DNA from: an uncultured bacterium
GTDB taxonomy: Bacteria > Bacillota > Clostridia > Lachnospirales > Lachnospiraceae
Direction of reading: 5' to 3'
Assembly: GCA_947643145.1 (NCBI GenBank)
Contig: CANRVD010000009.1
Coordinates: forward strand, 1 to 59,977
Length of the DNA stretch: 59,977 nt
Positions 40,889-59,747 of the stretch are shown here, in pieces (the stretch's first letter is position 1; each line of letters opens with the position of its first letter). The notes under the pieces are model-generated. The model worked only from the letters and a program-made list of their open reading frames with translations, had not been told where the DNA came from and did no database searches. The translations under genes were made by a program, and so were the position numbers.

Positions 40889-40920
40889 GGGGCACCGGCT
40901 TAGGCTGGTGCCCTGGTTTT
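40889..40920 (+). terminator. terminator after the GH127-GH43 unit
   Basis: GGGCACCGGC pairs with GCTGGTGCCC (one G-U) around a TTAG loop and is followed by TGGTTTTG. Confidence 0.7.
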
Positions 40921-40940
40921 GTTAAGAAGAGTTCCCGAAT

Positions 40941-41040
40941 GTTCGGTATGAAGGACGCTGGTTTTGCGTTCTTTTGAGGTTTGATTTAGTTTCTGCAGCG
41001 CATGGTGTGTTCATGTGTTAGTAGAACTTCAAACCTTATT
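40941..41040 (+). repeat. structured repeat element, copy A
   Basis: Hairpin 1 is AAGGACGC (40951-40958) with GCGTTCTT (40966-40973). Stem 2 is AGGTTTGA (40977-40984) with TCAAACCT (41029-41036). Inside it is stem 3, AGTTTCTGC (40988-40996) with AGTAGAACT (41020-41028), containing one bulge, and then CGCATG/CATGTG. The element starts 20 nt after a terminator. Copies B (54581) and C (56570) share the layout and much of the sequence. Confidence 0.6.
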
Positions 41041-41192
41041 GTAAGAAATTACAGGGTTTCCAGGGGGATATTTGTGCTAGATGCAATAAACATTTTCAAG
41101 AAAATAAAAAAAACTGTACATTTTTTACGAAAAATACTAGAAAAAAGTGCCGTTTTATTATAAAATATAACTACAAGGCGGTGGAGGTCGTA

Positions 41193-41221
41193 TTGACTTT
41201 TTGATATTACCATAGTATTAT
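41193..41221 (+). promoter_or_regulatory. promoter of the transporter operon
   Basis: TTGACT (41193-41198), 17 nt and TATTAT (41216-41221). Transcription would start near 41228 and produce a leader of about 186 nt. Confidence 0.7.
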
Positions 41222-41227
41222 AGGATA

Positions 41228-41413
41228 AGCTAAACTATTTTACTAAATATTAAAAAGCGTACGGATAGGCCTGTTGCATACGCACAAGTCAATATCTCCC
41301 GCTGCAAGCAGCGGGAGATTAGACCCGCGCGCAGTCGCCAAATGCAAAGGAATTTTCAGTTCCTTTGCATTTGGTTCGTTGCGGATGCGAGAATAAACTG
41401 TAAGGAGGATGCT
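41228..41413 (+). promoter_or_regulatory. highly structured 5' leader of the binding-protein gene
   Basis: Three hairpins follow each other: GCGTA/TACGC (about 41257-41284), the 12-bp ATCTCCCGCTGC/GCAGCGGGAGAT (about 41293-41318), and a perfect 15-bp stem CCAAATGCAAAGGAA/TTCCTTTGCATTTGG (41338-41352 with 41360-41374). None is followed by a T-run. AAGGAGG at 41402-41408 is left free just after them. Confidence 0.55.
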
Positions 41414-44407
41414 ATGCGGTGTAAAAAAAGTGAAGGCAAAGTCAAAAAAACGGTCATACTGGGATTGACCGCTGCTTTGATCGTTGGTGGCGTTGGATTA
41501 AAGGTAGCTGCCACCGAAGTGTCAGATGATGCAGGGACCAGCAAGGCAGAAGCTGGAACTACATACGATTCTGAGGAGTATTCCAGTGAACGTATCGGAA
41601 CAAACTACACGGTTATCAGTAGTAAGTATACGTTGCAGGATTATACTGGTGAAGCGGTTAGTTTTGCCATGGGTGAGGCGGCGAAGGGGGATGCAAAGAA
41701 GCTGCTGACCAAAGAGACCAGAGAGTATCAGGAAAGTGCGGAAGTGCTTGGACTGAATACCGGAAGTAAGGTGGAGCTTGAAATTGATGTACCAAGTGAT
41801 GGCTTGTACAATTTAGATTTTGATTATCTCTCCTATGATGAATCTATATTGCCGATTTCCATGGCACTTAAGGTGGATGGGGAATATCCATTTTATGAAT
41901 GTCGTAACATGAAGTTTGAGACAACATGGAAACTCGGCGAAGAGCCTTCTTATGACCGGTATGATAATCAGGTTGTTACAGTACCGAAGAAGGAAATTCA
42001 GTGGGAGTCAAAGTACCTGATGGATTCCAGTTACCGTCATTCTGACCCGTTAAAGCTGGAGCTGAAGAAGGGTGTACATACATTAGAGGTTGAAATCAAA
42101 GAAGGAAATTTCCTGCTTGGAAATCTTACTTTGGAAGCACCTACAACAATAGAAAAGTACACTGGTTCAGAGAAGGCTGAGGGGTCTAAGAAAATTGAGA
42201 TTCAGGGTGAAGAATATTACACTACAAACGATTCTGCCGTTCATGCGGTTGTAGAGTATGACAGCAGTCTGGATCCATATGAGGTAAAAGACACGGTTCT
42301 GAATACTTTGGACTCTGATTCTTTTGGAACAGCAGGACAGAGGGTGACTTATAAGTTCAATGTGGAAGAAGCAGGAAATTACTATATTGCAATGAACTAT
42401 CGTCAGTCTGAAAAGACAGATTTCCCAGTGTTTGTTGACGTTGCAATTGACGGCAAGATTCCAAATGATGCATTTCGTTCATATGGAATGGCCTATTCCA
42501 CAAAGTACAGAACCAGTACCCTTGAAGATTCAAAAGGAGAGAAGTTAAGTGTTTATCTGGAAAAGGGAGAACATACTATTTCATATACGATTAGTATGGA
42601 TACCATCTGCTACATTATGGAACAGCTTGATGTGATTATGTCAAATGTAAATGACTTGTCACTTGAGATTACCAAAGTAGCAGGTACAAATGCAGATAAA
42701 TATCGTGATTTAAGACTTTCAAGGTATATTCCAGATTTGGAAGAAAAGTTACGTCAGTATGCAGAGGATCTTGAAAAACTGGAGCAGAGTGCAGTACAGT
42801 ATAGTGAAAGTGATACGAATGTTGCGGTAATGTCTTCTATGTTAATTGCTGCTGAGCAGTTAAAAAGTCTGGCAGACAACCCGGACGAAGTTCCATACCG
42901 TATCGCTGAGCTGTCAACAAGCACAAACTCCGTAAACCACCATTTGGCAACAACGATTGATAACCTGATTACCAATGGTCTTGCAATCGACAGAATCTGG
43001 ATTTATCAGGAGGGAGCGGAACTGCCAAAGAAGCCTGGATTCTTCAAGTCATGCTGGATGAGTATTCAGAGATTTACTGCTTCCTTTACGGAGCAGGCAT
43101 ATTCTGCAAACAATACAAACAAGGAACATCTGCAGGTATGGGTAAACCGTTCCAGCCAGTATGTACAGATTATGCAGAAAATGATTGATGAGTACTTTAC
43201 GCCGAAGACAGGAATTGAAGTAGATATCAGTATCATGCCGGATCAGAATAAACTGGTACTTGCGAATTCATCCGGTAATGCCCCGGATGTGGCGACGGGT
43301 ATTAACTATACAATTCCGTATGAGTTAGGTATTCGTGGAGCATTGGTTGATCTGGCGCAGTATGAGGACTTCAAAGAGGCGGCTAAGGCGTATGAGCCTG
43401 GATTTTTTATGACAGGAAGTGTTGATGATGGAATTTATTCTATGCCAGAGACAATGAACTTCTGGGTATTGTTCTACCGTACAGATGTTATGGAGAAACT
43501 TGGACTGGAAGTGCCGGAGACGATGGGCGAGGTAATTGATATGCTCCCGACTCTGCAGATGAAGGGACTTAACTTCTACTATCCGACAGCCGGAATGCTT
43601 CTGATGAGAAACTTCCACGGTACAACACCACTGATTATGCAGAATGGAGGTTCCATCTATAATCCAACAGCAGCAGAGGGAACAGCCCTTGGCAATGAGG
43701 AGACAGTTAACGGTTTTACGACACTGACCGATTTGTTTACAATTTACAACCTTCCGGTCAATGTAGATAACTTCTACCAGCATTTCAGAAATGGTGATAT
43801 GCCGATTGGAATTGCTGATTATGCTACTTACAATATGCTGACCAATGCAGCTCCAGAGCTGGAAGGATCATGGGAAGTATCTTTGGTTCCTGGTACAAAG
43901 CGTGCAGATGGAACAATTGACCGCTCTGTTTGTGGATGTGCAGAAAGTACTGTTATTTTCAAGAGCAATTCTGACAGAGAAGCAAAGGCATGGGAGTTCG
44001 TTAAGTGGTGGTCTTCTACAGAAGTACAGGCAGAATTTGGGCAGACAATCCAGATTACGTATGGTAGCGAATATATTTGGCCAACGGCTAATATGGAAGC
44101 TATGGGACGGCTTCCGCTGGAAGGGCAGGTATAGCAGGTGATTCAGGAAACAGCTAAGAATGTAGTTGATATAGCGAGAGTACCTGGAACTTATCTGTTA
44201 GAGCGTGAAGTAAGTAATACATTTAATGATATCGTGGTTAATGGCCAGAATGAGCGTACGCGAATTGATAAGGCGGTTAAGAGTGTTAACCATGAGTTTG
44301 AACGAAAGCTGGAGGAGTTTGGCTACAACAATAGCGATGGTTCGGTTATTAAGGATTATCATATTCCGACGCTGGAGTCGGTAACCAAGCTGCTTGAACG
44401 AGAATAA
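41414..44407 (+). pseudogene. large extracellular solute-binding protein with N-terminal CBM-like region, interrupted by in-frame TAG
   Basis: One frame of about 998 codons is broken by TAG at 44132-44134. The ATG at 41414 has AAGGAGG upstream; an in-frame ATG at 41342 lies inside a hairpin and is rejected. A signal-type helix (KKTVILGLTAALIVGGVGLK) lacks a lipobox cysteine. Residues about 40-440 look like two carbohydrate-binding beta-sandwiches, followed by a helical linker. From about residue 570 it is an ABC sugar-binding protein (HLQVWVNRSSQYVQIM, DVATGINYTIPYELGIRGAL). After the TAG the same frame runs 90 codons (ETAKNVVDIARVPGTYLLER to KLLERE), the conserved C-terminal helices of such proteins. 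It feeds the permeases at 44462 and 45432. Confidence 0.82.
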
Positions 44408-44461
44408 AAAGAGTAGCGATGAAAGATGCCGATTCAGCTTAAACGGAGGGATGAAAAAGAT

Positions 44462-45412
44462 ATGGCGAAAAATAATAGTAGTGTTGATATTGAGACAATC
44501 AACAAAAAGAAAAAGAATAATATCCGCAAGCGTGAGCGCAATAACTGGAATGGATATGCATTTATGGCACCATATGCCCTTATGTTTATTGCATTTATCC
44601 TCGTACCGGTTCTTATGGCGATCATATTATCCTTTACAAACTTTAACTCAATTCAGTTACCATCCTTTGTAGGATTTCTGAATTACATCACTTTGATTAC
44701 AAGTGATGAAGTGTTTATGCAATTCGTATTGCCAAATACGGTTGTATATGCACTTATTGTCGGTATCGGAGGGTATGCCTTATCCTTCGTACTGGCATGG
44801 GCGCTTTGTAACCTGACAAAGCTTCCAAGGACAGTATTTGCTTTGATACTGTATTCACCAAGTATGACAGCCGGTGTTGCCATGACCGTACTTTGGAAGG
44901 TTATCTTTTCGGGTGACCAGACAGGTCTTTTGAACAGCTGGCTCATGAGTCTTGGTTTAATTAATGAACCGATTATATGGCTGATAAGTACAAAGTATCT
45001 GCTTCCGATTGTTGTTATAATTGGTTTGTGGTCTTCCATGGGTGTAGGCTTCCTGTCAATGATTGCAGGTATCCTGAATTCAGATGAGGAGTTATACGAG
45101 GCAGCGGCAATCGATGGTATAAAGAACCGTTTCCAGGAAATGATTTATATCACGATTCCGCAGATGAAACCGCAGATGTTATTTGCAGCGGTTATGTCTA
45201 TCGTAAATGCATTCCAGAATGGTTTGATTTCAACACAGCTGACTGGTAATCCGTCACCGGGGTATGCGGCACAGTTGATTGTAAACCATATTGAGGATTA
45301 CGGTTTCCTGCGTTATGAGATGGGTTATGCAGCAGCAGTTTCCGTTGTATTGCTGTTGATTGTACAGTTATTCTCAAAGGCTTGTAATACGCTTTTGACG
45401 GAAAAAGATTAA
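44462..45412 (+). CDS. ABC sugar permease, MalF/UgpA-like
   Basis: The protein has about 316 aa. I prefer the ATG at 44462 because GGAGGG lies 11 nt upstream; the ATG at 44426 would translate that site. About six helices begin at [20 protein letters not shown]. The cytoplasmic EAA loop reads [10 protein letters not shown]-like as [18 protein letters not shown], where the ATPase docks. It imports sugars with the permease at 45432 and the binding protein upstream. No ATPase gene lies in the locus, so a shared MsmK-type ATPase elsewhere is expected. Confidence 0.88.
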
Positions 45413-45431
45413 TAAGAAGGAGGGAGAAGAA

Positions 45432-46301
45432 ATGGCATATAAGGGAAAAAGAATTAATCCCCAAAAATTTGAGAGAGGCCAGATAAAGCTTATTATCGTC
45501 TTGCTTCCATTAGTAATTTTTATGGCCTTGCCATTAGTATTCATTGCAAACCATGCGTTTAAACCGATGGAAGAGTTGTTTGCTTTCCCACCAACTTTCT
45601 TTGTAAAGAATGCTACCATGGAAAACTTCACAAAGCTGGTTAAGTTCAGTCGTACGGCAGGTGTACCAATCAGCCGTTACATATTTAACAGTGTAATTGT
45701 TACTGCATTGACGGTCGGTTTATCCTTGCTTTTTACCACCTTTGCAGCATTCGCATTAGCAAAGTTAAAGTTTAAGGGAAGAAGTTTGATGATGACAATC
45801 AACCAGTTGGCAATTATGTTTGTAGCAACTGCCGTATTGATTCCGAGATATTTGGTTATCTGTAATCTGGGCATGATTGACAGCATTTGGGCACATGTGC
45901 TTCCGCTGTTAGCTTATCCGGTTTCCCTGTTCCTGGTAAAACAGTTCGTTGAGCAGGTACCGGATGCCTTAATTGAGGCAGCTTACATAGACGGTGCTAC
46001 CGACATGACAATTTATCGTAAGATTATTCTTCCGATGACGAAGCCTGCGATTGCGACTGCAGCAATTCTTGCATTCCAGCAGGTATGGGCAAATATGGAG
46101 ACTTCAAACTACTATATTAATGATGATAGTATGAAGACACTGACCTTTTATATGAACTCGTTGGTGAATGTAAATAATACCGTATCTGGTCAGGGTATGG
46201 CAGCAGCGGCAACGCTGATTATGTTTATACCAAACCTGGTATTGTTCATCATTCTTCAGAATAATGTCATGAATACCATGGCACATTCTGGTATCAAGTA
46301 A
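45432..46301 (+). CDS. ABC sugar permease, MalG-like
   Basis: The 289-aa membrane protein has about six helices and the EAA loop ALIEAAYIDGATDMTIYRKI. Most relatives belong to the carbohydrate uptake 1 group. AAGGAGGGAG precedes the ATG, 19 nt after the partner permease, so the two are co-translated from one operon. The pair would carry arabino-oligosaccharides, inferred from the neighbouring enzymes. Confidence 0.88.
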   Translation: MAYKGKRINPQKFERGQIKLIIVLLPLVIFMALPLVFIANHAFKPMEELFAFPPTFFVKNATMENFTKLVKFSRTAGVPISRYIFNSVIVTALTVGLSLLFTTFAAFALAKLKFKGRSLMMTINQLAIMFVATAVLIPRYLVICNLGMIDSIWAHVLPLLAYPVSLFLVKQFVEQVPDALIEAAYIDGATDMTIYRKIILPMTKPAIATAAILAFQQVWANMETSNYYINDDSMKTLTFYMNSLVNVNNTVSGQGMAAAATLIMFIPNLVLFIILQNNVMNTMAHSGIK

Positions 46302-46322
46302 ACAATTGCAGAAGGAGAAGTT

Positions 46323-48392
46323 ATGAAGAGAAATAAAAAGTTTTTAAAACTGGCAGCTTTGTTCCTGATTGCAATGGTCCTTACTTCAGGAATCGGTGCT
46401 GCGACAGTATCCGCAGAGACACCATACCGGACATATACTGTGGATGGAAATAGCAGGATGGAGGAAACACAGACTGCGTATCTCGCACATGCGACCTTAA
46501 TAAAATTCGGTAATGAATTTTTAAGTGCTCCCAGTGATTTATGTGTAGCGGAGGATGGAAAACTCTATATTGCAGATACAGGGAATAGTAGAATCGTAGT
46601 AGGAACAGCAGAGGGCGAATTATTAAAAGTTATCGGTAAAGGTACTTTAAAGTCGCCAAGAGGTGTATTTGTCACGGAAAACGGTCATATCTATGTGGCT
46701 GACCGTGATGCCGAGGCAGTATTTGAGTTTGATGCCGATGGTAACGTATTAAATACATATAATAAACCGGATAACCCTTTATATGGTGGTGACCGAGTAC
46801 CATTTATGCCAATCAAGGTAGTTGTAAATGATGCAGGCATTATGTTTATTATATGTGAATCAAACACAAACGGTATTGTAGAGATTTCTCCTGCAGAGGG
46901 CGGGACATTCCTCGGATATTTCGGAACGAACTTTGCCTCTACAGACTTGCAGACCATTATTTACCGGGCGATTCTGACAGATGAGCAGAGAGCAAAGATG
47001 GCAAGTAATATTCCTGCAACACCGGATAATCTGGCAATTGATGAAAAGGGTCTGATTTATACGGTAACAAGAGGTGATGAGGCAAGTACATTAAAGAGGC
47101 TTAATATTGCAGGTATTAATCTGATTAATGGAGCAAACCTTCAGGATGTATATGATCTTTCACCGGCTGCTGTTGCAGTTGGAAACCATGATAACGTCTA
47201 TGTTGCTTCTGCTGCAGGTTATATCTATGAGTATAATAATCAGGGTGAACCGATTTATGTATTTGGTGGACGTGACGATGGTACGCAGCGTGTTGGTTTA
47301 TCTACTCAGGTAACCAGTATTCAGGTTGGATCCAATGATGAGATTTACATATTGGATTCCGACAAGGCACAGATTCAGGTATATGAGCCTTCTGAATTTA
47401 CGCAGAAGTTACATACGGCATTGTACCTCTATTCAAAGGGACGTTATACGGAAAGTAGAGAGCCTCTGACTGAAGTGTTGAAAATGAACAGTATGTTTGA
47501 CTATGCAAACAGGGCAATGGGCAGGGCTTATTTCCAGGAAGAGAATTATGATGCTGCTGTCAAATATGCAAAATTGTCAAAGGATAAGACAGGATACTCC
47601 GATGCATTCTGGGAAATCCGTAATATATGGCTGAAGCAGAATATCGTTGCAGCAATTTTAATTATAATCTTTCTCTTTATTGCATTTAAGGTGATTAAGG
47701 TTCTTGACAGGAAAAAGGGCATCTTAAATGGAATCAGGGCTGGTACAGCTAAGATTAAGGAGAATAAACTGGTATCCAACCTGTTATATTCGGGCTATTT
47801 TATGAAACATCCTTTTGATGGTTCTTATGGAATTGCAAGAGAAGGAAGAGCCTCCTGGAATGCGCCATCTATCATATTGGTAATCTTTATGGTGGAATAT
47901 GTTATTAATAAGTATTTGTGTGGATTCCTGCAGAAAACAGTGCGTGAAGGTAAATATGAGATTTTCTCTGATGTTGGAACAATCTTAGTGGTTATTGTTG
48001 GATTAACAGCTTGTAATTATCTTGTATGTACGATTAATGAAGGTGAAGGTACTGTAAAGAAGATATATACTTACTTCTGCTATAGTCTTCTTCCATATGT
48101 TGTATTGACTCCGGTAAGCTTTGTACTGTCTCATGTAGTAACGACAAATGAGCAGTTCCTGATTACACTGGTGCAGATTATTATTTATGCATGGGTAATT
48201 ATACTTGGCATTCTTGGGATTAAGGAAGTCAATAACTATACAGGAAAAGAAACTTTTAAAGTTATCTGCCTGACAGCATTTACAATTTTGATTGTTGCAC
48301 TCTTGATATTCATTATCTATGTACTTTGGGCTCAGGTATTTGAGTTTATCAGTGCAATTTACGGAGAGGTGGTGTATCGGCTTGGCTATTAA
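46323..48392 (+). CDS. exported NHL beta-propeller protein with C-terminal YIP1-type membrane domain
   Basis: The 689-aa protein has a signal peptide (LAALFLIAMVLTSGIGAATV) and a beta-propeller of NHL-type repeats (SDLCVAEDGKLYIADTGNSR, SPRGVFVTENGHIYVADRDA). A TPR-like helical part follows (YSKGRYTESREPLTEVLKMN). After a membrane helix near residue 445 comes a YIP1-like domain with about five helices. Such proteins recur in Lachnospiraceae next to sugar transporters and DUF5696 genes; their function is unknown. The position between permease pairs suggests a role in sensing or organising polysaccharide uptake. The 3' end overlaps the DUF5696 gene. Confidence 0.8.
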   Translation: MKRNKKFLKLAALFLIAMVLTSGIGAATVSAETPYRTYTVDGNSRMEETQTAYLAHATLIKFGNEFLSAPSDLCVAEDGKLYIADTGNSRIVVGTAEGELLKVIGKGTLKSPRGVFVTENGHIYVADRDAEAVFEFDADGNVLNTYNKPDNPLYGGDRVPFMPIKVVVNDAGIMFIICESNTNGIVEISPAEGGTFLGYFGTNFASTDLQTIIYRAILTDEQRAKMASNIPATPDNLAIDEKGLIYTVTRGDEASTLKRLNIAGINLINGANLQDVYDLSPAAVAVGNHDNVYVASAAGYIYEYNNQGEPIYVFGGRDDGTQRVGLSTQVTSIQVGSNDEIYILDSDKAQIQVYEPSEFTQKLHTALYLYSKGRYTESREPLTEVLKMNSMFDYANRAMGRAYFQEENYDAAVKYAKLSKDKTGYSDAFWEIRNIWLKQNIVAAILIIIFLFIAFKVIKVLDRKKGILNGIRAGTAKIKENKLVSNLLYSGYFMKHPFDGSYGIAREGRASWNAPSIILVIFMVEYVINKYLCGFLQKTVREGKYEIFSDVGTILVVIVGLTACNYLVCTINEGEGTVKKIYTYFCYSLLPYVVLTPVSFVLSHVVTTNEQFLITLVQIIIYAWVIILGILGIKEVNNYTGKETFKVICLTAFTILIVALLIFIIYVLWAQVFEFISAIYGEVVYRLGY

Positions 48393-50739
48393 AAACTGGA
48401 AAAAAATGGTCGCTCTCTTAGCAGCAGTTTCTGTTACAGCAGGAGTACCGGGAGTTTCCTATTATGCATCAGCAACCTCCGTAGATGACGCGGCGGCAGG
48501 CGATGCAGGTGCAGGAGATGCCGGGACAGAAGCAGAAGGTGAGGGAGAAAAAGAAGAAGAGAAGCAGGAAGTAATGGATAACGGCGAAGTAGTCATGAAA
48601 AATGCAGTCGGAAAGAAAGACAAATCCGAATGGATTACAATGAAAGACTACGAGGTGGTGGCAGAAAGTGATACCTATAAGATGTATCTGTATGAGCCTA
48701 CGCTTTCCATTATGTTAGAGAATAAGGAGACTGGAAAGATTCTGGAATCTACCCTTAGTGATGAAAAGGATGATGGTCTTAGTAATGTTGCATGGAACAG
48801 TTATATGAAATCAGGTATCGTTGTAAATGCGATTGCAGATGCCAGGAGCAGGAATACATATCAGCTTGATTTGGTAAACAGTGAGCATACTCTGGATGTT
48901 ACAAAGACAGATAACGGCTTTTCTGCAAAGGTCTACTTCAAGGAATATCAGCTTGGTTTAACTATGAATGTATCCTTGGAGAACGATGAACTGGTAGTCT
49001 GTATCCCGGATGATTCTTTTGTAGAGGACAAAGAAGGGGCTTATATTTCTACGGTGATACCTTATCCGTTAATGGGATATTCCTTCCTTGATGAAAAAGA
49101 GGGATATATGTTAATTCCAGATGGAAATGGAGCTTTGATTAATCTGGATAACAAGGAAGGCCGCTATGTAACCGGATTCTCCCAGATGGTTTACGGTTCT
49201 GATGTAGGTTTTGATGATTCCGTTGTCAAAGAATATCTTTGGGATATGCTTGATATGGTAAAAGAATCCAATAAGGTTCTTGCCCCAATCTTTGGAATGG
49301 TTCATACGGATGATCAGCTAGGCTATCTTGCAGTAATTGAGCAGGGAGATAAGCGTGCCAGAATTGAGGCGCAGCCAAACGGCGCTATGGTAAACTATAA
49401 CCGCTGTTATGCAAGTTTCCTTCTCAGGGATGTTTTTGTTCAGCCATTGAACAACTCAAATTCCGGTACCATGATAAAAGCAGAAGATGACCGTACCCAT
49501 TCGGATTTGCAGGTTCGTTATCTGTTGCTGTCCGGTGAGGATGCAAATTATTCTGCTATGGCTACAAGATACCGCAATTATCTTTTGGATAATAACATGC
49601 TTACCATTAAAGACAATTCCTATAATACGCGTGTTGACTTCCTTGGAACAGAAAGAGAGGATTTCCTTCTTTCCACAAGAGCGGTAACAATGACTACAAC
49701 AGAAAATATTGAAGAGATGTTTGCAGAACTTAAGGAAAATGGTGTATCCAGCCTGCTTAGTATCTATAAGGGCTGGCAGAAGGGCGGCCTCTATGATTTG
49801 CCAATTACAAAGTATAAGGCAGACAGCCATATTGGCGGCACCTCCAAACTGACTGATTTGATTAAGGAATCTGCAGAGGATAATTATAACATTTATCTGT
49901 ATGGTGATGCATTGCGGCTGAATCCAAGCACAAATGGCTTAAACTTCAATATGGCAAAGAAGGTTAATAAGAGAACCTATGAAGAGGAAATCTGGGCAGA
50001 GGTATATAACACATTCTATTACCTTGTACCGGAAAAGTCAGGGGATGCTATAAAGGATTTAGCAGATTCTTATCTGGACAAAGGTGTGGCGAATATGGCG
50101 GTAGCCGGCATTAGTAATAACGTATTCTCATATAGCTTCAAGAATAGTTTTTACAGCAGGCCGGATACGGCAAAGCGGTATTCTGAGATGCTTGATTCTA
50201 TCGATAAGGATACAAATCTAGTATTAGAACAGCCCGTTGCTTATCTGTGGAAAAATGCGGATGCATTTTTAGATATGCCACTTGGTTCTTCCGACTATAT
50301 GTATATAGATGAGGAAATCCCATTCCTGTCTATGGTATTAAAGGGTGTTATGCCAATGTATTCTGATTACGTTAACTTTGAGGCAAATAAGCAGGAATTC
50401 ATATTGCAGATGGTAGAATCCGGTGTATATCCTTCCTTCTATCTGACCTATGAAAACTCTGCAGATTTGATTAATACAAATTCTTCTGATTTATATAGTA
50501 CGGAATATAGTACCTATAAGGATGCAGTTGCCCAGTATGATAAAGAATTAAGAGAAGTTAACGAAGTAGTTAAGGATGCATTTATTACAAAGCATGAGAA
50601 GCTTGGAAGCGGTGTTGTTGTTGTAACATACAGCAATGGCGTACGGATTTATGTAAACTATACAAATAAAGCCAAAACAGTTGATGGAGTAACTGTTGAG
50701 GCAATGTCATATTCCTATAAGGTAGGTGAGGCCGAATGA
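48382..50739 (+). CDS. exported DUF5696 protein, possible uncharacterised glycosidase
   Basis: The protein has about 785 aa. TTG at 48382 is the likely start: GGAGAGGT lies before it and a signal peptide follows at once (KNWKKMVALLAAVSVTAG). It overlaps the YIP1 gene by 11 nt. An acidic Ala/Gly-rich linker leads to a large domain with LPDGNG-like MLIPDGNGALINLDN, then a region resembling a TIM barrel (SLLSIYKGWQKGGLYDLP, YLYGDALRLNPSTNG, MAVAGISNNVFSY, YMYIDEEIPFL). The DUF5696 name is from memory of the family. Catalytic residues are not established. Sugar-locus context supports carbohydrate binding or cleavage. Confidence 0.75.
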   Translation: MAIKNWKKMVALLAAVSVTAGVPGVSYYASATSVDDAAAGDAGAGDAGTEAEGEGEKEEEKQEVMDNGEVVMKNAVGKKDKSEWITMKDYEVVAESDTYKMYLYEPTLSIMLENKETGKILESTLSDEKDDGLSNVAWNSYMKSGIVVNAIADARSRNTYQLDLVNSEHTLDVTKTDNGFSAKVYFKEYQLGLTMNVSLENDELVVCIPDDSFVEDKEGAYISTVIPYPLMGYSFLDEKEGYMLIPDGNGALINLDNKEGRYVTGFSQMVYGSDVGFDDSVVKEYLWDMLDMVKESNKVLAPIFGMVHTDDQLGYLAVIEQGDKRARIEAQPNGAMVNYNRCYASFLLRDVFVQPLNNSNSGTMIKAEDDRTHSDLQVRYLLLSGEDANYSAMATRYRNYLLDNNMLTIKDNSYNTRVDFLGTEREDFLLSTRAVTMTTTENIEEMFAELKENGVSSLLSIYKGWQKGGLYDLPITKYKADSHIGGTSKLTDLIKESAEDNYNIYLYGDALRLNPSTNGLNFNMAKKVNKRTYEEEIWAEVYNTFYYLVPEKSGDAIKDLADSYLDKGVANMAVAGISNNVFSYSFKNSFYSRPDTAKRYSEMLDSIDKDTNLVLEQPVAYLWKNADAFLDMPLGSSDYMYIDEEIPFLSMVLKGVMPMYSDYVNFEANKQEFILQMVESGVYPSFYLTYENSADLINTNSSDLYSTEYSTYKDAVAQYDKELREVNEVVKDAFITKHEKLGSGVVVVTYSNGVRIYVNYTNKAKTVDGVTVEAMSYSYKVGEAE

Positions 50740-51767
50740 GTAAAATGAGCAAAGAAGAAAAGAAAAACCGAAAGAAGGTAAAACCGGGGCGTCTGGCAAA
50801 ACGTGATGCGTTAGTAGGAATTGCGTTTATCTCCCCCTGGATTGTCGGAGTTTTAGCGTTTTTAGCGTATCCATTGGCACAGTCGTTCTGGTACGCATTA
50901 AACAATATTCGTCCTACACCGTTAGGCATGAAGTTTACTTATGTAGGATATGGAAACTTTACAGAACTCCTTATGGCAACTCCGGAATTTCCGACAACAC
51001 TGATTGAATATGTCGTGTCAACTATCATATCAGTACCAATCATTGTAGTTTTTGCCTTGATTATTGCGATTATGCTGAATCAGGATGTCAAAGGAAAAGG
51101 GTTTTTCAGACTTATCTTTTTCCTGCCGGTTATCATTGTAAGTGGACCAATCCTTGGAATGTTAAACGGTGACGGTGCTGGAAGCATTACTGCTATTGAT
51201 ATTCAGGCAATTACAGATGCGATTAAGGAGGTACTGCCATCAGCATTTGCAGAACCAATTTCTGAATTGTTTGAAAATATGATTACCATTCTTTGGTATT
51301 CCGGTGTACAGATATTGATATTCCTGTCCAGTCTTCAGAAAATTGACCGTGCAATGTACGAGGCAGCAAAGATTGATGGTGGTTCAGGATGGGAGTGCTT
51401 CTGGAAGATTACACTTCCAACAATTAAGCCTATGATTCTTTTGAACTGTGTATATACGATTATATTTATTTCGAACAATGATCAGAATTCCATTATTGAG
51501 CTGATTAAGGTGTCGATGTTCTCTGGTACACAGGAGAAAGGTTATGGATTTGCTTCCGCGATGGCGTGGTTGTACTCAGTTGTCGTATTGTTGATTGTAG
51601 CCTTGTTCGCTGTACTGTTCCTTGCAAAGAAGGATGTATATGCAAAACAGGTTAAGAAGGCGAAGAAGGCCCGCAAGAAAGAACTTAGAGAAATTAAGAG
51701 AGTAGGAAGGAGGAGCGCTAGACATGCCAAAAAGAGAGAAAGAGAAAACAGAAAAGCAGGAAAATAA
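50736..51767 (+). CDS. ABC sugar permease (MalF-like), second transporter
   Basis: The 343-aa protein has a lysine-rich N-terminus and six helices, with the EAA loop RAMYEAAKIDGGSGWECFW. It overlaps the DUF5696 gene by 4 nt (ATGA) and the next permease by 44 nt, so the three are tightly coupled. The very basic C-terminal tail (KKARKKELREIKRVGRRSAR) is caused partly by the overlap. It belongs to a second importer, different in sequence from the pair at 44462-46301. Confidence 0.87.
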   Translation: MSKMSKEEKKNRKKVKPGRLAKRDALVGIAFISPWIVGVLAFLAYPLAQSFWYALNNIRPTPLGMKFTYVGYGNFTELLMATPEFPTTLIEYVVSTIISVPIIVVFALIIAIMLNQDVKGKGFFRLIFFLPVIIVSGPILGMLNGDGAGSITAIDIQAITDAIKEVLPSAFAEPISELFENMITILWYSGVQILIFLSSLQKIDRAMYEAAKIDGGSGWECFWKITLPTIKPMILLNCVYTIIFISNNDQNSIIELIKVSMFSGTQEKGYGFASAMAWLYSVVVLLIVALFAVLFLAKKDVYAKQVKKAKKARKKELREIKRVGRRSARHAKKRERENRKAGK

Positions 51768-52737
51768 GTCTGTGTCTAAAAAAGCAACTGGTGCAAGACC
51801 AAAGTTTAACAAAGACAAATTCCGGAAGTTTATGCTAGGCTCCAAAGAAAAGCAGGGATTTTTGAAGCTGTTCTGTATCTATGGTTTATTAATCTGTATC
51901 GGTTTCATCTATCTGAATCCGATTCTGCATATGATAAGCAGAAGTTTCATGACACTTGATGATTTGTTAGATTCATCCATTAACTGGATTCCAAGCTCCT
52001 TTAACCTGGACAATTATGCACAGGCAGCGAGAAGTATGGATTTTTGGAAGTCTCTTGGACTTAGTATCATTATTGCAGGTGTTCCAACGATTTGTAATCT
52101 GGTATCCTGTGCGGTTATTGGTTATGGTTTGGCACGTTTTGAATTTCCGGGCAGGAATGTAGTAATTGGGATTATTGTATTTACCTTTATTCTTCCAAGT
52201 CAGGTAACTATGATTCCTACCTATGTACTGTACTCTAATATGGGAATCCTCAGTACGCTTTGGGCATTTGTACTGCCATCACTTTTAGGTATGGGAATTA
52301 ATGCACCAATCTTTATATTGATTTTCTGGCAGTTCTTCAGGCAGGTGCCAAAGGTATTAATTGAAGCAGCACAGATTGACGGTGCAGGTTATCTGAAATC
52401 GTTCTTCCGTATTTCCTTACCTTCTGCTGCACCGGCAATTATTACGGTATCGCTGTTCTCCTTTGTGTGGTACTGGAATGAGTCTTACCTGACATCAATG
52501 TATGTAGCAGGTGTTAATGTAAAATCCGGCTGGACTTCACTGGTTATTCAGTTAGACAGCTTTGCGTCAAACTATTCGAAGTATGCCCAGACAGCATCAT
52601 CGGGTGCCGTTACTCTGAATGAGTCAATTAATATGGCGGGTACCATGTTAAGTATTCTGCCGTTGCTGCTGATGTACTTTGTATTACAGCGGTACTTTGT
52701 AGAGAGTATTGACCGTACAGGTATTACAGGAGAATAA
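51724..52737 (+). CDS. ABC sugar permease (MalG-like), second transporter
   Basis: The 337-aa protein begins with about 50 hydrophilic, lysine-rich residues, then a first helix (FCIYGLLICIGFIYLNPILH) and the usual membrane domain. The EAA loop is VLIEAAQIDGAGYLKSFF. GGAAGGAGG precedes the ATG, inside the end of the partner gene. It should form the channel of the second importer together with the gene at 50736 and use the lipoprotein at 52934. Confidence 0.87.
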   Translation: MPKREKEKTEKQENKSVSKKATGARPKFNKDKFRKFMLGSKEKQGFLKLFCIYGLLICIGFIYLNPILHMISRSFMTLDDLLDSSINWIPSSFNLDNYAQAARSMDFWKSLGLSIIIAGVPTICNLVSCAVIGYGLARFEFPGRNVVIGIIVFTFILPSQVTMIPTYVLYSNMGILSTLWAFVLPSLLGMGINAPIFILIFWQFFRQVPKVLIEAAQIDGAGYLKSFFRISLPSAAPAIITVSLFSFVWYWNESYLTSMYVAGVNVKSGWTSLVIQLDSFASNYSKYAQTASSGAVTLNESINMAGTMLSILPLLLMYFVLQRYFVESIDRTGITGE

Positions 52738-52933
52738 TTTTTATCTGCTGTGCAGGATTTCGTCATGGGGTGGCGGGGGTATAAAGTATAACCATATTAT
52801 TCTAAAGTATTTCACAAAAAACTATAGAATTTTTGGTGAAAATATGTTACAATTTACTATAGCTATTACGTAGGCTGTGGTATACTGACAGTCCTGCAAG
52901 GATTGTCATAATAGATTTAAAAGGAGGAAGATT
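52738..52933 (+). promoter_or_regulatory. intergenic leader with hairpin before the lipoprotein gene
   Basis: TGACAGTCCT (52886-52895) and AGGATTGTCA (52899-52908) form a 10-bp hairpin with a 3-nt loop, 26 nt before the ATG. TATACT at 52881-52886 may be a -10 element. The hairpin could also act as a processing or stabilising site that raises expression of the binding protein. Confidence 0.4.
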
Positions 52934-54508
52934 ATGAGAAAAAAATTATTAGCTATGATGCTGGCTGCGTCTATGACAATTGGATTGGCTGGTTGTGGTG
53001 GCGGTAAGCAAACAGCGGTAGACTCTGGTAAGACCAAAATTACAAATGAAGTGGAAGAGGTAGAGATTGATGGAATTACCTACAGTAAGGCAAAAGATAT
53101 GACAAAGGATGATATTGAGCTTGTTTATTTCCACTTTGATCAGGATGAGACAGTTCAGTATCTGGCAAAACGTTTCATGGAAATTTATCCAAATATTACA
53201 GTAAGGCCTGTTTATGAAAATGTTGCAACATATAATGATACCTTGCTGACACTGGTATCAGACAGCAATACACCGGATGTTATTATGTATTCGGATGCAG
53301 ACTTTGCATTAAGTAATTCGTTGCTGGCAGATATCACAGAGCTTTGGGATTCTGACCCTGAGACGAAAGAAGTTGCAGATACCATTAATGACTGTGGAAT
53401 CGGCTGCTTTGGTACAGACAGAAGATTTGCCGTACCGGTTAAGTTCTTCCCTGGTGTTATGTATATCGACTTAAATGTATTAAAGAAGCTTAATGTAGAA
53501 GCTCCTTCCAGAAACTGGACATGGGATGACATGATTCAGTTAATCAAAGACTGTACTGTTGATAATGGAGACGGTATGCAGTATTATGGATGTGGTTACT
53601 ACAACAGACTGGATTCTTACTATGGAATTGCAGCAGCACAGACTGTACAGGGCGAGTTCGGTTTCGATGGAAAGAAATTTGACCTGAGTGCATGGGCAAT
53701 CGGTGAGCAGCAGTTTGCAGAGTTAAAGCAGGGTAATTACATTGCGCCTTTGCAGAATACAGTTGCTATGGAAACATGGATGGGTGACTTTGAAGGATGG
53801 TGTGGTGCATCTTCTCATGTAGCATTATTTACCGAAGCATTTTGGACCTATCAGGGAACATGGGCAACGGAGAACTGGAAGCAGTACAATATGGATATTA
53901 TCCCTTATGTTGTTCCTGCTGTCAGCGAAGAGGATGCATCTTCAGAGCATCACTCTATTGCAACAATTGACTTTGGTGGTCTGACAACAGCCTGCCAGCA
54001 TCCTCGTGAGGCATATGAGTTATTGAAGTTCATGAGCTTTGGTAAGGATGGATGGAAGACAAGAATCCAGTTATATAATAACGAAGAAATCGTTAATTCC
54101 AGCAAGCTGGCACTTAAGTATGATGTTATGCCTGCTCCTATCACAAAGAATCAAGAGGTTTGGGATCAGTATATTGATATGTACTGCAAGGGTCTGGATG
54201 ATGAACATATTGGATACTGGAAAGAGTTCTTCTCAAGCTGCTTACAGCCAATTCCATATGGCTGGACCAGTATCGCAGGTTACTGGAACTACTGTGATGA
54301 GTACTTCAATAAGCTTGGTATCCATGACTTGGTAGATGGTGGTACCGCTAAGGCTGCTGACTACGTAGATGAAGCAACAGAAAAGGCAAATTATTACCAT
54401 GCTACAGCCATGCTTCAGTACTTCGGTAAGGAAGGATATAATGTTCTTTCTGATGAGGACGTTAAGTTCTATGAAGATATGGTTGAGGAAAATAAGGGTG
54501 ATAAATAA
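52934..54508 (+). CDS. sugar-binding lipoprotein of an ABC importer
   Basis: The 524-aa protein has a lipoprotein signal (MLAASMTIGLAGCGGG with lipobox LAGC), so it should be anchored to the outer face of the membrane. The rest is an extracellular solute-binding protein, group 1: ELVYFHFDQDETVQYLAKRF, NTPDVIMYSDADFALSNSLL and YEGWCGASSHVALFTE-like as FEGWCGASSHVALFTEAFW. It follows the second permease pair and is probably their binding protein. AAAGGAGGAAG precedes the start. Confidence 0.9.
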   Translation: MRKKLLAMMLAASMTIGLAGCGGGKQTAVDSGKTKITNEVEEVEIDGITYSKAKDMTKDDIELVYFHFDQDETVQYLAKRFMEIYPNITVRPVYENVATYNDTLLTLVSDSNTPDVIMYSDADFALSNSLLADITELWDSDPETKEVADTINDCGIGCFGTDRRFAVPVKFFPGVMYIDLNVLKKLNVEAPSRNWTWDDMIQLIKDCTVDNGDGMQYYGCGYYNRLDSYYGIAAAQTVQGEFGFDGKKFDLSAWAIGEQQFAELKQGNYIAPLQNTVAMETWMGDFEGWCGASSHVALFTEAFWTYQGTWATENWKQYNMDIIPYVVPAVSEEDASSEHHSIATIDFGGLTTACQHPREAYELLKFMSFGKDGWKTRIQLYNNEEIVNSSKLALKYDVMPAPITKNQEVWDQYIDMYCKGLDDEHIGYWKEFFSSCLQPIPYGWTSIAGYWNYCDEYFNKLGIHDLVDGGTAKAADYVDEATEKANYYHATAMLQYFGKEGYNVLSDEDVKFYEDMVEENKGDK

Positions 54509-54534
54509 AAGTAAGTTATCATGACTCAGTAGGA

Positions 54535-54565
54535 GGGGCAAGGCAATACGCCTTGCCCCTTCTTA
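54535..54565 (+). terminator. terminator of the transporter operon
   Basis: GGGGCAAGGC (54535-54544) pairs perfectly with GCCTTGCCCC (54550-54559), followed by TTCTT. Confidence 0.8.
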
Positions 54566-54580
54566 TGTTATAGGAAAGTT

Positions 54581-54690
54581 CCTAAGATATGCAGTGTGAA
54601 GAACACTGGTTTTGCGTTCTTCTTAGGTTTGGCTTAGCTTTACTTGCTATGGTTCTTTCATGCGTTAGTGAAGCTTTAAACCTTTTATAT
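54581..54690 (+). repeat. structured repeat element, copy B (5' leader of the GH51 gene)
   Basis: Hairpin 1 is AAGAACAC (54599-54606) with GCGTTCTT (54614-54621), one mismatch. Stem 2 is AGGTTT (54625-54630) with AAACCT (54678-54683). Stem 3 is AGCTTTACT (54636-54644) with AGTGAAGCT (54667-54675), 9 bp. It begins about 15 nt after a terminator and ends 20 nt before the GH51 start codon. CCTAAG (54581-54586) could pair with CTTAGG (54622-54627) and compete with stem 2. Confidence 0.6.
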
Positions 54691-54702
54691 GGAGGGAGAT
54701 AA

Positions 54703-56208
54703 ATGGTTAAGTTAATTATTAATGAGGAAAACAAGCAGGGAAAAATTGAACCAGAAGTATATGGTCATTTTTCAGAGCATCTTGGAAGATGTATTTATGA
54801 AGGAATTTATGTTGGTGAAAATTCAGAGATTCCAAATGTAAACGGAATGCGCACAGATGTTGTGGAAGCATTAAAGGAGTTGAAAGTACCGGTACTTCGA
54901 TGGCCGGGCGGTTGTTTTGCAGATGAGTACCACTGGAAAGACGGAATCGGCCCAAAGGAAAACAGAAAGAGAATGATTAATACACACTGGGGTGGTGTCG
55001 TAGAGGATAACAGCTTTGGTACGCATGAATATATGGAACTGTGTCATCAGTTAGGATGTAAAACATATATTAATGGAAATCTGGGAAGCGGAACCGTACA
55101 GGAGATGTCAGAATGGGTAGAATATATGACATTTAACGGGGTATCTCCAATGGCTGATTTACGAAAAGAGAATGGCAGGGAAAAGCCATGGAAGGTTGAT
55201 TTCTTTGGTGTAGGCAATGAAAACTGGGGCTGCGGTGGAAATATGACACCAGAATTTTATGCCAATGAATACCGCCGTTATCAGACGTATGTCAGGGACT
55301 ATGATAAAAAGAAACCAATTAAAAAGGTGTGCTGTGGGGCAAATGTATCAGATTATTACTGGACAGAGGGGGTTCTTGAGACAGCTTTTGACCACGCAGA
55401 AAAGTTCCACGGTTTTATGGATTACTTATCCCTGCATTATTATGTTCATCCGGAAGGCTGGAAGATTAAGGGAAGTGCTACTGACTTTGATGAAGATGTA
55501 TGGTACAAGACGTTAAGTAAGGCACTGTATATGGATGAACTGATTCGCCGTCATGGAGCGATTATGGACAGGTATGATCCGGGTAAGAAGATTGGTATGT
55601 GCGTAGATGAATGGGGCGCATGGTATACCAACGAGCCTGGAACGAATCCGGGATTTTTGTATCAGCAGAATACGGTTCGTGATGCGTTGATTGCCGGAAT
55701 TACGTTAAATATCTTTAATAAGCACTGTGACAGAGTAAAAATAGCTGCCCTCGCACAGATGGTGAATGTATTGCAGGCGGTACTTCTGACAGAAGGAGAG
55801 AAGATGATAAAGACTCCTACCTATCATGTTATGCATATGTACCGTCACCATCAGGGAGCGGAGCTGTTAGAGAGTTCGATTACCGGTGTGGAAAAAATTG
55901 GCACGAAAAAGTGGATGGTTCCAAAGGTGACCGAGTCTGTTTCTCTGGGTGAGGATGGTATTATTACGGTTACAATGAATAATCTTTCAGCAGATTCCTC
56001 AGAGAAAGTTGAGATTCAGCTTGCAGGAGCGGGCTATCAGATAACAGAGGCGCGTGTTGTGACAAATAATGATATGCATGCCTATAATACGTTTGATGCA
56101 CCAGAAGAGGTAATAGAAGCGGACTTTACGGATTATACAGCAACAGAAAATGGATTTACTGTTACATTGCCAAAGAACAGCGTTGTCGCTTTGCGGATGA
56201 AAAAGTAG
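54703..56208 (+). CDS. abfA: GH51 alpha-L-arabinofuranosidase
   Basis: The 501-aa protein has the usual length and fold of bacterial GH51 enzymes: a (beta/alpha)8 barrel and a C-terminal beta-sandwich. The acid/base is Glu173 in [11 protein letters not shown] and the nucleophile is Glu303 in [30 protein letters not shown] is the conserved substrate-binding segment. There is no signal peptide, so it removes terminal arabinofuranose from imported arabino-oligosaccharides in the cytoplasm. GGAGGGAGATAA precedes the start. Element B forms its 5' leader. The gene symbol is the common one for this enzyme. Confidence 0.95.
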
Positions 56209-56219
56209 GAATACAGCGT

Positions 56220-56477
56220 ATGGCAACTATTTGTAAAAAGTGTCTCCTTCGGGAAATGGCAGAAGCCGACATGGCAATGATTACCAAATATAAGGAGGCA
56301 ATTAAGGAAAATGACAGAGTAAGTGAAGAAGTTTATGAAGCAAGGCTGTCAGTCTGTAAATCCTGTGAATTTCTGAATGCAGGTACCTGCGGGGCCTGCG
56401 GCTGCTATGTGGAACTGCGGGCAGTCGCTAAAACAGGAAAGTGTCCGTATAAGAAATGGAAAAGTGGAATGTCTTGA
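56220..56477 (+). CDS. small cysteine-rich protein (85 aa), DUF6171-like
   Basis: The protein has two cysteine clusters, ICKKCLLREM at the start and CKSCEFLNAGTCGACGC in the second half, then GKCPYKKW. This suggests zinc or iron-sulfur binding. A helical acidic stretch lies between. It resembles small DUF6171 proteins of Clostridia (name from memory). It starts 11 nt after the GH51 stop, without a strong ribosome binding site, and is probably co-transcribed. Function unknown. Confidence 0.65.
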   Translation: MATICKKCLLREMAEADMAMITKYKEAIKENDRVSEEVYEARLSVCKSCEFLNAGTCGACGCYVELRAVAKTGKCPYKKWKSGMS

Positions 56478-56554
56478 CATTCCACTGAAAAAAGCTAAGG
56501 AACTTTAGTTCCTTAGCTTTTTTGTTAGCGCACCGATTTTGATGGTGCTTTTTT
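56463..56554 (+). terminator. tandem hairpins and terminators
   Basis: Three hairpins follow each other. AGTGGAATGTC/GACATTCCACT (56463-56486) overlaps the stop codon. AAAGCTAAGGAACT/AGTTCCTTAGCTTT (56491-56520) is followed by TTT. GCACC/GGTGC (56530-56548) is followed by TTTTTT. The second is a textbook Rho-independent terminator. Confidence 0.85.
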
Positions 56555-56569
56555 CCTGCCTTATGGAAA

Positions 56570-56675
56570 AACGTTTGGTATGCCAATGTGAAGAACGCTG
56601 AAACAGCGTTCTTCTTAGGTTTAACTTAGTCTCCACTGCGCATGGTATTTTCGCGTTAGTGGAACTTTAACCCTT
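56570..56675 (+). repeat. structured repeat element, copy C
   Basis: Hairpin 1 is AAGAACGCTG (56591-56600) with CAGCGTTCTT (56604-56613), perfect. Stem 3 is AGTCTCCACT (56628-56637, one bulged C) with AGTGGAACT (56658-56666). Stem 2 (GGTTT with TTAACC) is weaker than in copies A and B. The element lies directly after the terminators of the GH51 unit and ends at the stop codon of the convergent GH43 gene. Confidence 0.6.
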
Positions 56676-56678
56676 TTC

Positions 56679-59600: not shown

Positions 59601-59747
59601 CGACGGGTCATGTACGGAAACGCGTGCAGGCGAAACCGTTACGGTAGCTGCTTTCGCTGTATCTGTATTCATTGGGATGGTAACAGAGGTTGTTACCAAT
59701 GCCAGTGTCAGAAGACAGGACGCAAGCTGCTTTGTGCTTTTTCTCAT
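56679..59747 (-). CDS. large secreted GH43 arabinanase with Ig-like, LamG and Big_2 domains
   Basis: The 1022-aa protein has a signal peptide (KQLASCLLTLALVTTSVTIP). The GH43 domain shows Asp47 in VHDPSI, then NAIDPTAFYD and GEAPYILYD. It is followed by the accessory beta domain also found in the protein at 39008 (about 440-545), an Ig-like domain (about 548-632), a LamG domain (about 634-852) and two Big_2 repeats to the end. The Big_2 repeats suggest attachment to the cell wall. It is probably an endo-acting arabinanase working with the GH127 enzyme. TAGGAGG precedes the ATG at 59747. It is the only gene of the locus on the minus strand. Confidence 0.88.
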   Translation of the reverse strand: MRKSTKQLASCLLTLALVTTSVTIPMNTDTAKAATVTVSPARVSVHDPSIVEAKDGYYYVYGSHTSAAKSKDLVNWTSFGTDILAATGPNSSQTKNNSIFGNVTENLKKPLAWAGDIKDTDDGTYHVWAPDVFWNEEYVNADGTTGAYMMYFCTTSTWNRSVVCFATSKDISGPFTFVDTLIYSGFGKGGTYDYNKTNIDELIADGTLKDGLNSSWFDNSSYNSRYAPNAIDPTAFYDKDGKLWLTYGSWSGGIFVLSVDPATGYVIHPGQNSVTEDGLVVDEYFGTRISGGYHHSGEAPYILYDKESDYYYLYITNNALNADGGYNMRLFRSKNPDGPYYDAADNKALHESTTESNSLGIKVMGNHQFSCQTRGYKAPGHNSAFIDADGQRYLFYHTRFDNWGEIHQVRVHQQFLNEEGWPVTAVFENKGDEISESGYDTASITGDYEFINHGTNADLANVRKAQNITLNADGTISGDIKGTWEAKNGTYYMNAVIDKVTYSGVFFLQHNESNNAEATEKVMTFTAIGTNNTTIWGVRKTAYTYTDKEALDIAGSNLDADLRISEKTTGALTLPTAGLNSTTISWSSSDTNIIANDGKVTRPEADTEVTLTATLTRGSESETKTYTTTVLAKNPIPDFRYDFESVSDKKVSGSGAETTEATLNGTAAVTNDSFAGNVLTIKSTSGTKGKNYLALPSNLFKNVGNSGFTISMWEKHSSSTADDSLLLEAKSSKGIGNLPAIGLFVGGYGSVLSNQGSINGMVGITPDVSNWNLVTFTVTPFGITTYVNGSPLTSQNGSLTDVLVSDFLAMIDDIRIGGTTLLGSEDVVNTSIDNIEFYSAALSADEIAEKYQAEKASYPNLSLKASRSTIYFGGDKDKTAKLSIESDATFTFDTAYSSSNSSIASVNSTGTVTAKKAGTATITAALTNSEGKTQKITKKITVKKAYLQISKKKTSLKVKKTFTFKAKGYGLKASPLTWSSSKKSVLSINKKTGKATAKKAGTAKVTAKYKSFKVNVSVKVKK

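Follow-up and report, generated by a model that had tools for sequence, protein, structure and literature searches.

The three structured elements in the window, the 59,977-nucleotide stretch of DNA analysed here, belong to a family of folded repeats scattered through the genome, which we regard, with a probability of roughly 0.6, as a new REP/BOX/MITE-like family of interspersed palindromic repeats spread in trans by some enzyme. The preliminary description of the window had placed three copies of an RNA-like element in its arabinan locus, and covariance models of the repeat (R1 and R2) matched three cores near those places, all on the + strand (Table 1). The unit is about 100–125 bp long and, when full, consists of two hairpins: H1, which is short and conserved in sequence, and H2, a long hairpin whose stacked stems S2, S3 and S4 are split by two mirror-image internal loops, with TTAG opposite CTT. 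Copies A, B and C aligned with a mean column identity of 81%, and their fold z-scores ranged from −3.4 to −7.4 on both strands, with at most 1 of 200 shuffles folding as well, in agreement with the common sequence and fold described earlier. The inner-stem changes reported there (C-G/T-A, and T-A/T-G/C-G) were also read in our alignment when counted from the starting point used in that description.

Table 1. Positions of the three repeat copies, their parts and the adjoining terminator-like hairpins in the window
Feature	Position	Strand	Basis
Copy A core (H1 + H2)	40940..41040	+	R1 86.7 bits, R2 79.6 bits
Copy A hairpin H1 (GAAGGACGC...GCGTTCTTT)	40950..40974	+	sequence, fold
Copy A hairpin H2 (S2-S3-S4, TTAG/CTT internal loops)	40977..41036	+	sequence, fold, pair counts
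Terminator-like G+C-rich hairpin (GGGCACCGGC..GCTGGTGCCC) just 5′ of copy A	40890..40913	+	sequence reading
Copy B core	54588..54687	+	R1 95.4 bits, R2 84.2 bits
Copy B left end ATAGGAAA, common to many copies	54570..54577	+	sequence, flank comparison
Copy B hairpin H1	54598..54622	+	sequence, fold
Copy B hairpin H2	54625..54683	+	sequence, fold, pair counts
Terminator-like hairpin GGGGCAAGG..CCTTGCCCC 5′ of copy B	54535..54559	+	sequence reading
Copy C core	56580..56678	+	R1 78.7 bits
Copy C hairpin H1	56590..56614	+	sequence, fold
Copy C hairpin H2	56617..56674	+	sequence, fold
Terminator-like hairpin GCACCGATTTTGATGGTGC + T-run 5′ of copy C	56530..56554	+	sequence reading

The element had been thought to be confined to the arabinan locus, but it was found genome-wide, with 42 matches in the own genome by blastn, 97 by R1 (E ≤ 0.01) and 104 by R2 (E ≤ 0.001). 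The covariance-model search, which had been proposed in the preliminary description, returned many further copies, with covariation, and R2 matches at E ≤ 1e-3 numbered 83 in genome G006, 79 in G130, 57 in G008, 55 in G001 and 24 in G085. Some units are arranged in tandem, head to tail, with a period of about 122 nt, and a scan of the genome contigs gave at least 109 stretches, of which 80 were listed. Some copies sit at contig ends. Among a capped number of candidates scored per genome, the repeat was present in 16 of 25 genus genomes, the own one included, and matched nothing in the other 9; it was found in none of 16 genomes of other families, and a class-wide draw of 148 genomes contained it in the own genome and in 0 of the 147 others. 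At least 11 of 120 sampled genomes of the host's family (probably Lachnospiraceae), each of a different genus and again with the own genome included, carried it. The repeat is patchily present across its bacterial family. In line with the earlier remark that no class was recognised, Rfam 15 gave nothing at the gathering score for the window copies, nor for copies in 7 more loci (E up to 5), by which a known RNA family was set aside; a literature search judged by titles and the beginnings of abstracts found no such repeat in Lachnospiraceae, and an origin from plasmids or phages was set aside for one consensus, which had no blastn match in either a plasmid or a phage collection. The two findings named beforehand as speaking against the preliminary description, a lack of more copies and a match to a known MITE/REP family with random mutation patterns, did not emerge.

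In an alignment of 94 copies from many genomes, itself fitted to the model, standard pairs occupied 95.9% of the 2769 pair cells, change on both sides was seen at 28 of the 30 pairs, and the covariation score was 0.667, versus 0.204 for shuffled and at most 0.134 when the partners were slid. This covariation pattern is far beyond chance. Between sub-families the stem letters are unrelated, yet the pairing and the loop motifs stay the same, the letters of TTAG being conserved at 71/100/95/85% and those of the mirror loop at 74/98/92/91%. The compensatory changes in the window had been taken to argue for a selected RNA structure rather than a decaying DNA repeat; the doubly changed pairs do argue for a selected secondary structure, but not against a DNA repeat.

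Which molecule is constrained was approached by comparing the two strands. Mismatches of the G-T type numbered 55 versus 36 of the A-C type in alignment A6 (p 0.06), and 113 versus 74 in A4 and A5 together, with 6 duplicate rows included; a rough control on 7 distinct tRNAs contained 13 G-U and 0 A-C in 148 pairs. For 93 of the 94 copies, one with an N being left out, the fold z-scores were balanced between the strands (+ favoured in 45 of 93), and the raw fold energy was lower on + in 73 of 93. Since the pairing is hardly strand-biased, the constraint may act on DNA hairpins and not on RNA, and the near strand-symmetric pairing suits a palindrome in DNA no less well than an RNA; the slight G-T excess and the lower + strand energy leave room for + strand RNA selection. 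Of the earlier proposal of a constrained RNA, the kept fold stands, while its assignment to RNA is weakened by this near symmetry, and the wobble counts, the tRNA control and the fold z-scores are compatible with DNA as well as RNA.

Mobility is indicated by a comparison of the close relatives G006 and G020. Sites of 21 of the 34 G006 copies were mapped in G020. By R2, 6 of these have a full copy there, one (L377) has a weak match to H1 only and the remaining 14 gave no match, some of the absences falling in diverged flanks. A second weak G020 match (L385) overlaps its full copy. By eye, the stems differed at 2 of the 6 common sites (L341/L389 and L359/L388), and G020 kept H1 without H2 at two sites, L365/L379 and L344/L377, in the latter with a T-run directly after the lone H1. 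Because only 6 of 21 orthologous sites carry a full copy, and two of these have been re-stemmed, the repeat moves or recombines; insertion polymorphism of this kind between close relatives is a trait of MITEs. At the ends of 30 single copies, the longest common word of the left and right flanks was 5.87 versus 5.20 permuted (0 of 5000 as high), and for the letters after the T-run, in 22 of the 30, p was 0.0004, with the flank-word test confounded by non-independent T-run lineages. In many copies the left flank has TTTTTTATGNN ahead of ATAGGAAA. These end repeats may belong to the repeat itself and not be target-site duplications; copies L459 and L464 do not fit the end-repeat pattern.

The position of the repeat relative to genes was also compared with random placement. 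Of 125 mapped copies, 107 had their right end towards the 3′ end of a gene on the other strand, where chance placement within the same gaps would give 55%, and 77 of the 125 had the stop codon within −23 to +11 nt of the repeat as well (14% expected). In the window, the right end of copy C adjoins the stop codon of a GH43 gene (56679–59747, − strand). Neighbour genes, which come from our own uncurated ORF calling, were mutS/mutL, folD, trk-, lon- and guaB-like genes and many others, all but MutL and FolD being named by eye. The commonest setting, with 80 of 133 copies, was between two genes both read on the opposite strand, the 133 being fetched matches (60 from the own genome), a subset of all, with tandem units counted singly.

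This arrangement bears on two host-centred explanations. Read on the strand opposite to +, the element runs from a stop codon to a point ahead of the following gene's ribosome site, so it could be a host-selected intercistronic mRNA element, either a 3′ exonuclease shield for the upstream mRNA or a processing site uncoupling the expression of neighbour genes. The commonest setting and the stop-codon junction of most copies agree with this, as do the extra G+C hairpin that some sub-families carry directly 5′ of the ribosome-binding sequence, and the gaps between mutS and mutL (G003 and G008) and before folD (G000, G018 and G006), in which copies with different letters have the same fold across species. 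The model, however, matched in the mutL gap of just 2 of 23 genus genomes and before folD in 3 of 25, presence differs between close relatives, the genus includes the 9 genomes without any match, and that strand has no advantage in fold z-scores, which together make the reading unlikely. Still less probable is a + strand intrinsic terminator or attenuator, formed by H2 or H1 and then a T-run and kept as a genome-wide module. Many H2 hairpins do end in CCTTTTT, and the lone H1 with its T-run at L344/L377 has the expected form, but the T-run is absent from several sub-families (CACACTAT), several copies already come after a terminator-like hairpin, and in the commonest orientation the element is antisense to both neighbours and would terminate neither.

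Two further explanations fared worse. A REP proper, moved by a transposase of the RAYT type (REP-associated tyrosine transposase), would account for hairpin repeats that share a conserved motif containing TAG and are dispersed, in tandem and patchy in range, but the TAG, mostly as TTAG, is internal, between S2 and S3, with no GTAG tag at one end. Moreover, PF01797 (Y1_Tnp) occurred in 5 of the 9 genomes that have ≥10 copies, in 4 of the 7 that have 1–3 and in 5 of the 9 that have none, so that no link with copy number appeared (28 genus genomes searched, copy numbers for 25), and it was not found in the high-copy genomes G000 (84% complete) or G008 (97% complete). RAYT/IS200-type mobilisation was accordingly rejected, and a REP proper is very improbable. 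Some Y1 matches were fragments or interrupted by stops. Among the genes beside or between copies at six loci, read by eye, none looked like a transposase, and potassium-uptake-like and other ordinary genes were seen; a left-end pattern search for a parent element in G000, G006 and G008 gave 41 matches, and 30 such loci read by eye showed copies of the repeat, remnants and another family of repeats, with no transposon. A leader or riboswitch-like regulator of arabinan genes, for which copy B had been put forward, is suggested by the 15 nt between the end of copy B and the start of the arabinofuranosidase gene 3′ of it, but copies adjoin many other genes, and copy B has the minority orientation, a gene start being faced by only 18 of the 125 right ends. 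With copies genome-wide, an arabinose-specific leader was ruled out as a general reading, and the chance of it is close to nil.

The preferred reading, a palindromic repeat family spread in trans, was compared with known systems. BOX, RUP and SPRITE of pneumococcus are described as small intergenic repeats with strong folds, BOX being modular and SPRITE bearing a terminator-like T-tract (PMC3049150), and the present repeat resembles what is described there in being small, interspersed, strongly folded and intergenic beside genes; by that description it is set apart by its other host group, by a fold kept with unrelated stem letters and by the locking of most copies to stop codons. REP elements, as outlined in PMC3733652, are GTAG/CGTC palindromes of 20–40 bp for which recognition in the form of a folded single strand is proposed; dispersed hairpins, arrays and a short conserved TAG-bearing motif are shared with that outline, whereas a length of about 100 nt, two hairpins, an internal motif and no Y1 association depart from it. 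With ERIC, intergenic repeat units and MITEs, as far as the account of ERIC goes (PMC3049150), it shares intergenic palindromes of about 100–130 bp and insertion polymorphism. Unlike these, it had no terminal inverted repeats noticed by eye in the alignments, and its T-run-type terminal direct repeat is only suggestive. The attC sites of integrons resemble the repeat as folded single strands that carry extrahelical bases, conserve little sequence and lie directly after stop codons; the repeat differs in its two hairpins, and no cassette arrays were noticed.

From these features, we infer that the repeat would spread as a non-autonomous mobile element. A trans-acting enzyme would read the folded single strand, recognising the stems by shape and TTAG, CTT and H1 by letter, and insertion would occur within or beside short runs of T, for instance terminator T-tracts or the sequence TTTTTTA, which is complementary to a TAA-A-rich gene end. 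Stems could then be swapped as whole matching pairs by recombination between copies, and insertions would persist mainly at gene ends because they do least harm there; as a side effect, the hairpins may stabilise the preceding gene's mRNA or serve in its processing. More tentatively, and at clearly less than even odds, the repeat could represent a new class of mobile nucleic-acid element, probably of Lachnospiraceae, in which the thing replicated is a shape, with a fixed motif frame (TTAG/CTT mirrored around S3, and the H1 loop) read by a non-Y1 recombinase, whole stems exchanged between copies and insertion directed to gene-ending stop codons and T-tracts.

If the preferred reading is true, some genomes of the family, probably Lachnospiraceae, carry as many as roughly a hundred folded repeats that have no family in Rfam 15 and are placed where ordinary genes end, among them mutS and the genes before folD. 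With the covariance models and the presence/absence sites, this reading can be tested directly. Such repeats could alter operon expression between strains, could break assemblies, and could point to a new recombinase that reads hairpins by shape.

The three elements of the preliminary description (copies A, B and C) proved real and alignable with one another. Using copy B as a query, 42 places in its own genome were matched, and covariance models found more: R1, built from 25 copies, gave 97 matches at E<=0.01, and the broader R2, built from 94 copies, gave 104 at E<=0.001. The repeat is genome-wide in this genome. The earlier reader did not recognise a known class, in agreement with Rfam 15, in which copies A–C were unmatched at the gathering score over the whole window and copies in seven further loci had no match even at E values as high as 5. 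The window starts with two equally scoring tRNA genes (1-72, tRNA-Gln(ctg), and 132-203).

Cores of the repeat copies in the window
Feature	Position	Strand	Basis
Copy A core	40940-41040	+	model match
Copy B core	54588-54687	+	model match
Copy C core	56580-56678	+	model match

The repeat comprises a short hairpin H1 (about GAARAACGC-TGNTTTT-GCGTTYTTC), a short linker and a long hairpin H2, in which stem S2 (8 bp), the loop TTAG/CTT, stem S3, the mirror loop CTT/TTAG and stem S4 with loop GTNNTTT follow one another; some copies lack S4, S3, H1 or H2. Letter conservation was 71/100/95/85% in TTAG, 74/98/92/91% in the mirror TTAG, and 87/93/80% and 85/98/87% in the two CTT motifs, the outer letters of these motifs being modelled as closing pairs; in contrast, the letters of S2–S4 were variable. 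In alignment A4, with 78 copies, standard pairs filled 94.4% of the 2221 pair cells and double changes occurred at 29 of 30 pairs; in A6 (94 copies, a wider choice) standard pairs filled 95.9% of 2769. Double changes, of the compensatory kind noted earlier in the stems, occurred at 28 of 30 pairs in A6, where covariation was 0.667 vs 0.204 for shuffles and at most 0.134 for slid partners; both alignments are model-fitted and lean towards structure, yet the contrast with shuffles and slid partners is still large. The fold of the repeat is under selection.

The preliminary description had further read the element as a selected RNA structure rather than a decaying DNA repeat. G-T plus T-G cells outnumbered A-C plus C-A cells in A6 (55 vs 36, p 0.06) and A4 (79 vs 41) and stood at 34 vs 33 in alignment A5, and a small tRNA control gave 13 G-U and 0 A-C among 148 pairs. 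Raw fold energy favoured the + strand in 73 of 93 copies (p 1.6e-8), and fold z-scores were equal on both strands (+ favoured in 45 of 93, Wilcoxon p 0.30). The selected fold stands; a preference for RNA over DNA is not supported. We read these counts and folds as a constraint nearly alike on both strands, as for a DNA palindrome, with which an RNA function is compatible.

To describe placement, 133 fetched copies (after removal of 6 duplicates) were set against genes from our own ORF caller. Among the 125 copies with a right neighbour, 107 had their right end pointing at the 3′-end of a gene on the opposite strand, vs 55% expected from random placement in the same gaps, and in 77 of these 107 the stop codon lay from 23 nt inside to 11 nt outside the repeat end; both conditions together held for 62% (77/125) vs 14% at random. 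In a further 9 copies the stop codon was 121-125 nt away, as expected of a second tandem unit. Within an unselected 400 kb of genome G006 (321 gaps: 222 co-directional, 50 convergent, 49 divergent), 10 of 13 matches faced an opposite-strand 3′-end, four of the 13 being weak (E>0.003) and one lying within a called ORF. Since right ends are mostly at opposite-strand stop codons, the repeat in the genes' direction is the reverse complement of the form first drawn: it usually starts at the stop codon and stops before the next ribosome site or the convergent gene's terminator. Copy C alone in the window fits this placement, its right end abutting the stop of a GH43 gene; the other two have the minority orientation, copy B preceding an arabinofuranosidase gene and copy A lying some 300 nt upstream of a gene for a solute-binding protein. 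Other sub-families (loci L174, L166, L181, L165, L140, L144, L347 and others) carry a third hairpin, about GCCRGC..GCYGGC with CAT before it on the + strand, between H1 and the neighbouring gene's ribosome-binding site; a similar hairpin precedes mutL in genome G024 without the repeat.

In G020, a close relative, the sites of 21 of 34 G006 copies could be located. There, R2 found full copies at six sites, the orthologues of L341, L347, L361, L359, L346 and L131, a weak H1-only match at L344 and no match at 14; another weak match falls across the copy at the L346 site. On visual comparison, the stems at L341 and L359 differ between the two genomes (2 of six shared), L344 and L365 keep H1 without H2 in G020, and L135's site holds a short remnant linking left and right end. 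Some flanks in G020 have diverged, and at those sites the lack of a copy may reflect an earlier loss. A match lies in the gap before mutL in G008 and G003 (2 of 23 genus genomes) and in that before folD in G000, G018 and G006 (3 of 25). Therefore, both sides of a stem change together and sites are gained and lost: the repeat moves or recombines. Short remnants reading ATAGGAAACTTCGCACCTTT and similar, with the left end joined directly to the right, were also seen at G008 C56:33576 and C182:96144, G006 C4:40897 and the G020 site of L393; they look like deletions of H1 and H2 between short repeats.

Counting its own genome, R1 matched 16 of 25 from the genus, none of 16 genomes of other families and, at E<=1e-4, 14 of 299 from the family, where only 13 candidates were scored in each. 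R2 matched 11 of 120 family genomes, own included and all in separate genera (34 candidates scored each), and 1 of 148 drawn from the class, its own genome alone (27 candidates each); among the 21 of these 148 that were listed (127 were not), four besides its own were marked as the same family. Among the pattern-scan matches listed, records were mostly labelled Lachnospiraceae, others Clostridiaceae, Roseburia, Lachnoclostridium or only "bacterium". From these labels and the placement of Lachnospiraceae bacterium 3-1 in Lachnospiraceae, the family carrying the repeat is most probably Lachnospiraceae. Plasmid and phage records gave no match to one repeat consensus.

Where the left end reads ATAGGAAA, a hairpin resembling a terminator and a T-run often come before the copy, and the two flanks of such copies have letters in common beyond permutation. 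The common piece, a T-run followed by two to three further letters (TTTTTTACT, TTTTTCAT, TTTTTTAT, TTTTTTAA; exceptions L459 and L464), would be compatible with duplication of an 8-bp target within T-tracts, or could be a conserved end of the repeat. This left end is shared by a second folded repeat, also dispersed (ATAGGAAATTGC...GTAGTGG...CAAGAATT..AATTCTTG..GGGCACCAGCG..GGTGCCC-TTTTTT), which occurs at G008 L458, L459, L462 and L471, G000 L444 and possibly window 56480-56554. In several loci it lies immediately on one side or the other of the repeat described here, so that what looks like a terminator hairpin ahead of some copies may belong to a repeat of its own. Nested palindromes were also observed (L446/L358, L390, L128 at 1870-2035): an unrelated one of ~60 nt (...CAGACATCCACTGGATGTCTAGC...) within the H1 loop of several copies, and GGTGCTGTTCCAGCACC within S2 of others.

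Collectively, the repeat was shown to be dispersed, structured, mostly locked to stop codons and polymorphic. Its mobilisation would occur in trans, by way of the folded strand, with insertions presumably tolerated at gene ends; a mobilising enzyme was not found, and presence of Pfam Y1_Tnp was not associated with repeat copy number. We place it with the small interspersed palindromic repeats and do not assign it to REP, MITE or BOX, because no full set of their defining features was established for it. Several copies occupy contig ends, and in the draft genome G001 (JAAWKM01 contigs, e.g. L233, L241, L246) the repeat stands at the start or end of many contigs, so that its copy number there is probably underestimated; as these contigs illustrate, the repeat probably breaks assemblies.
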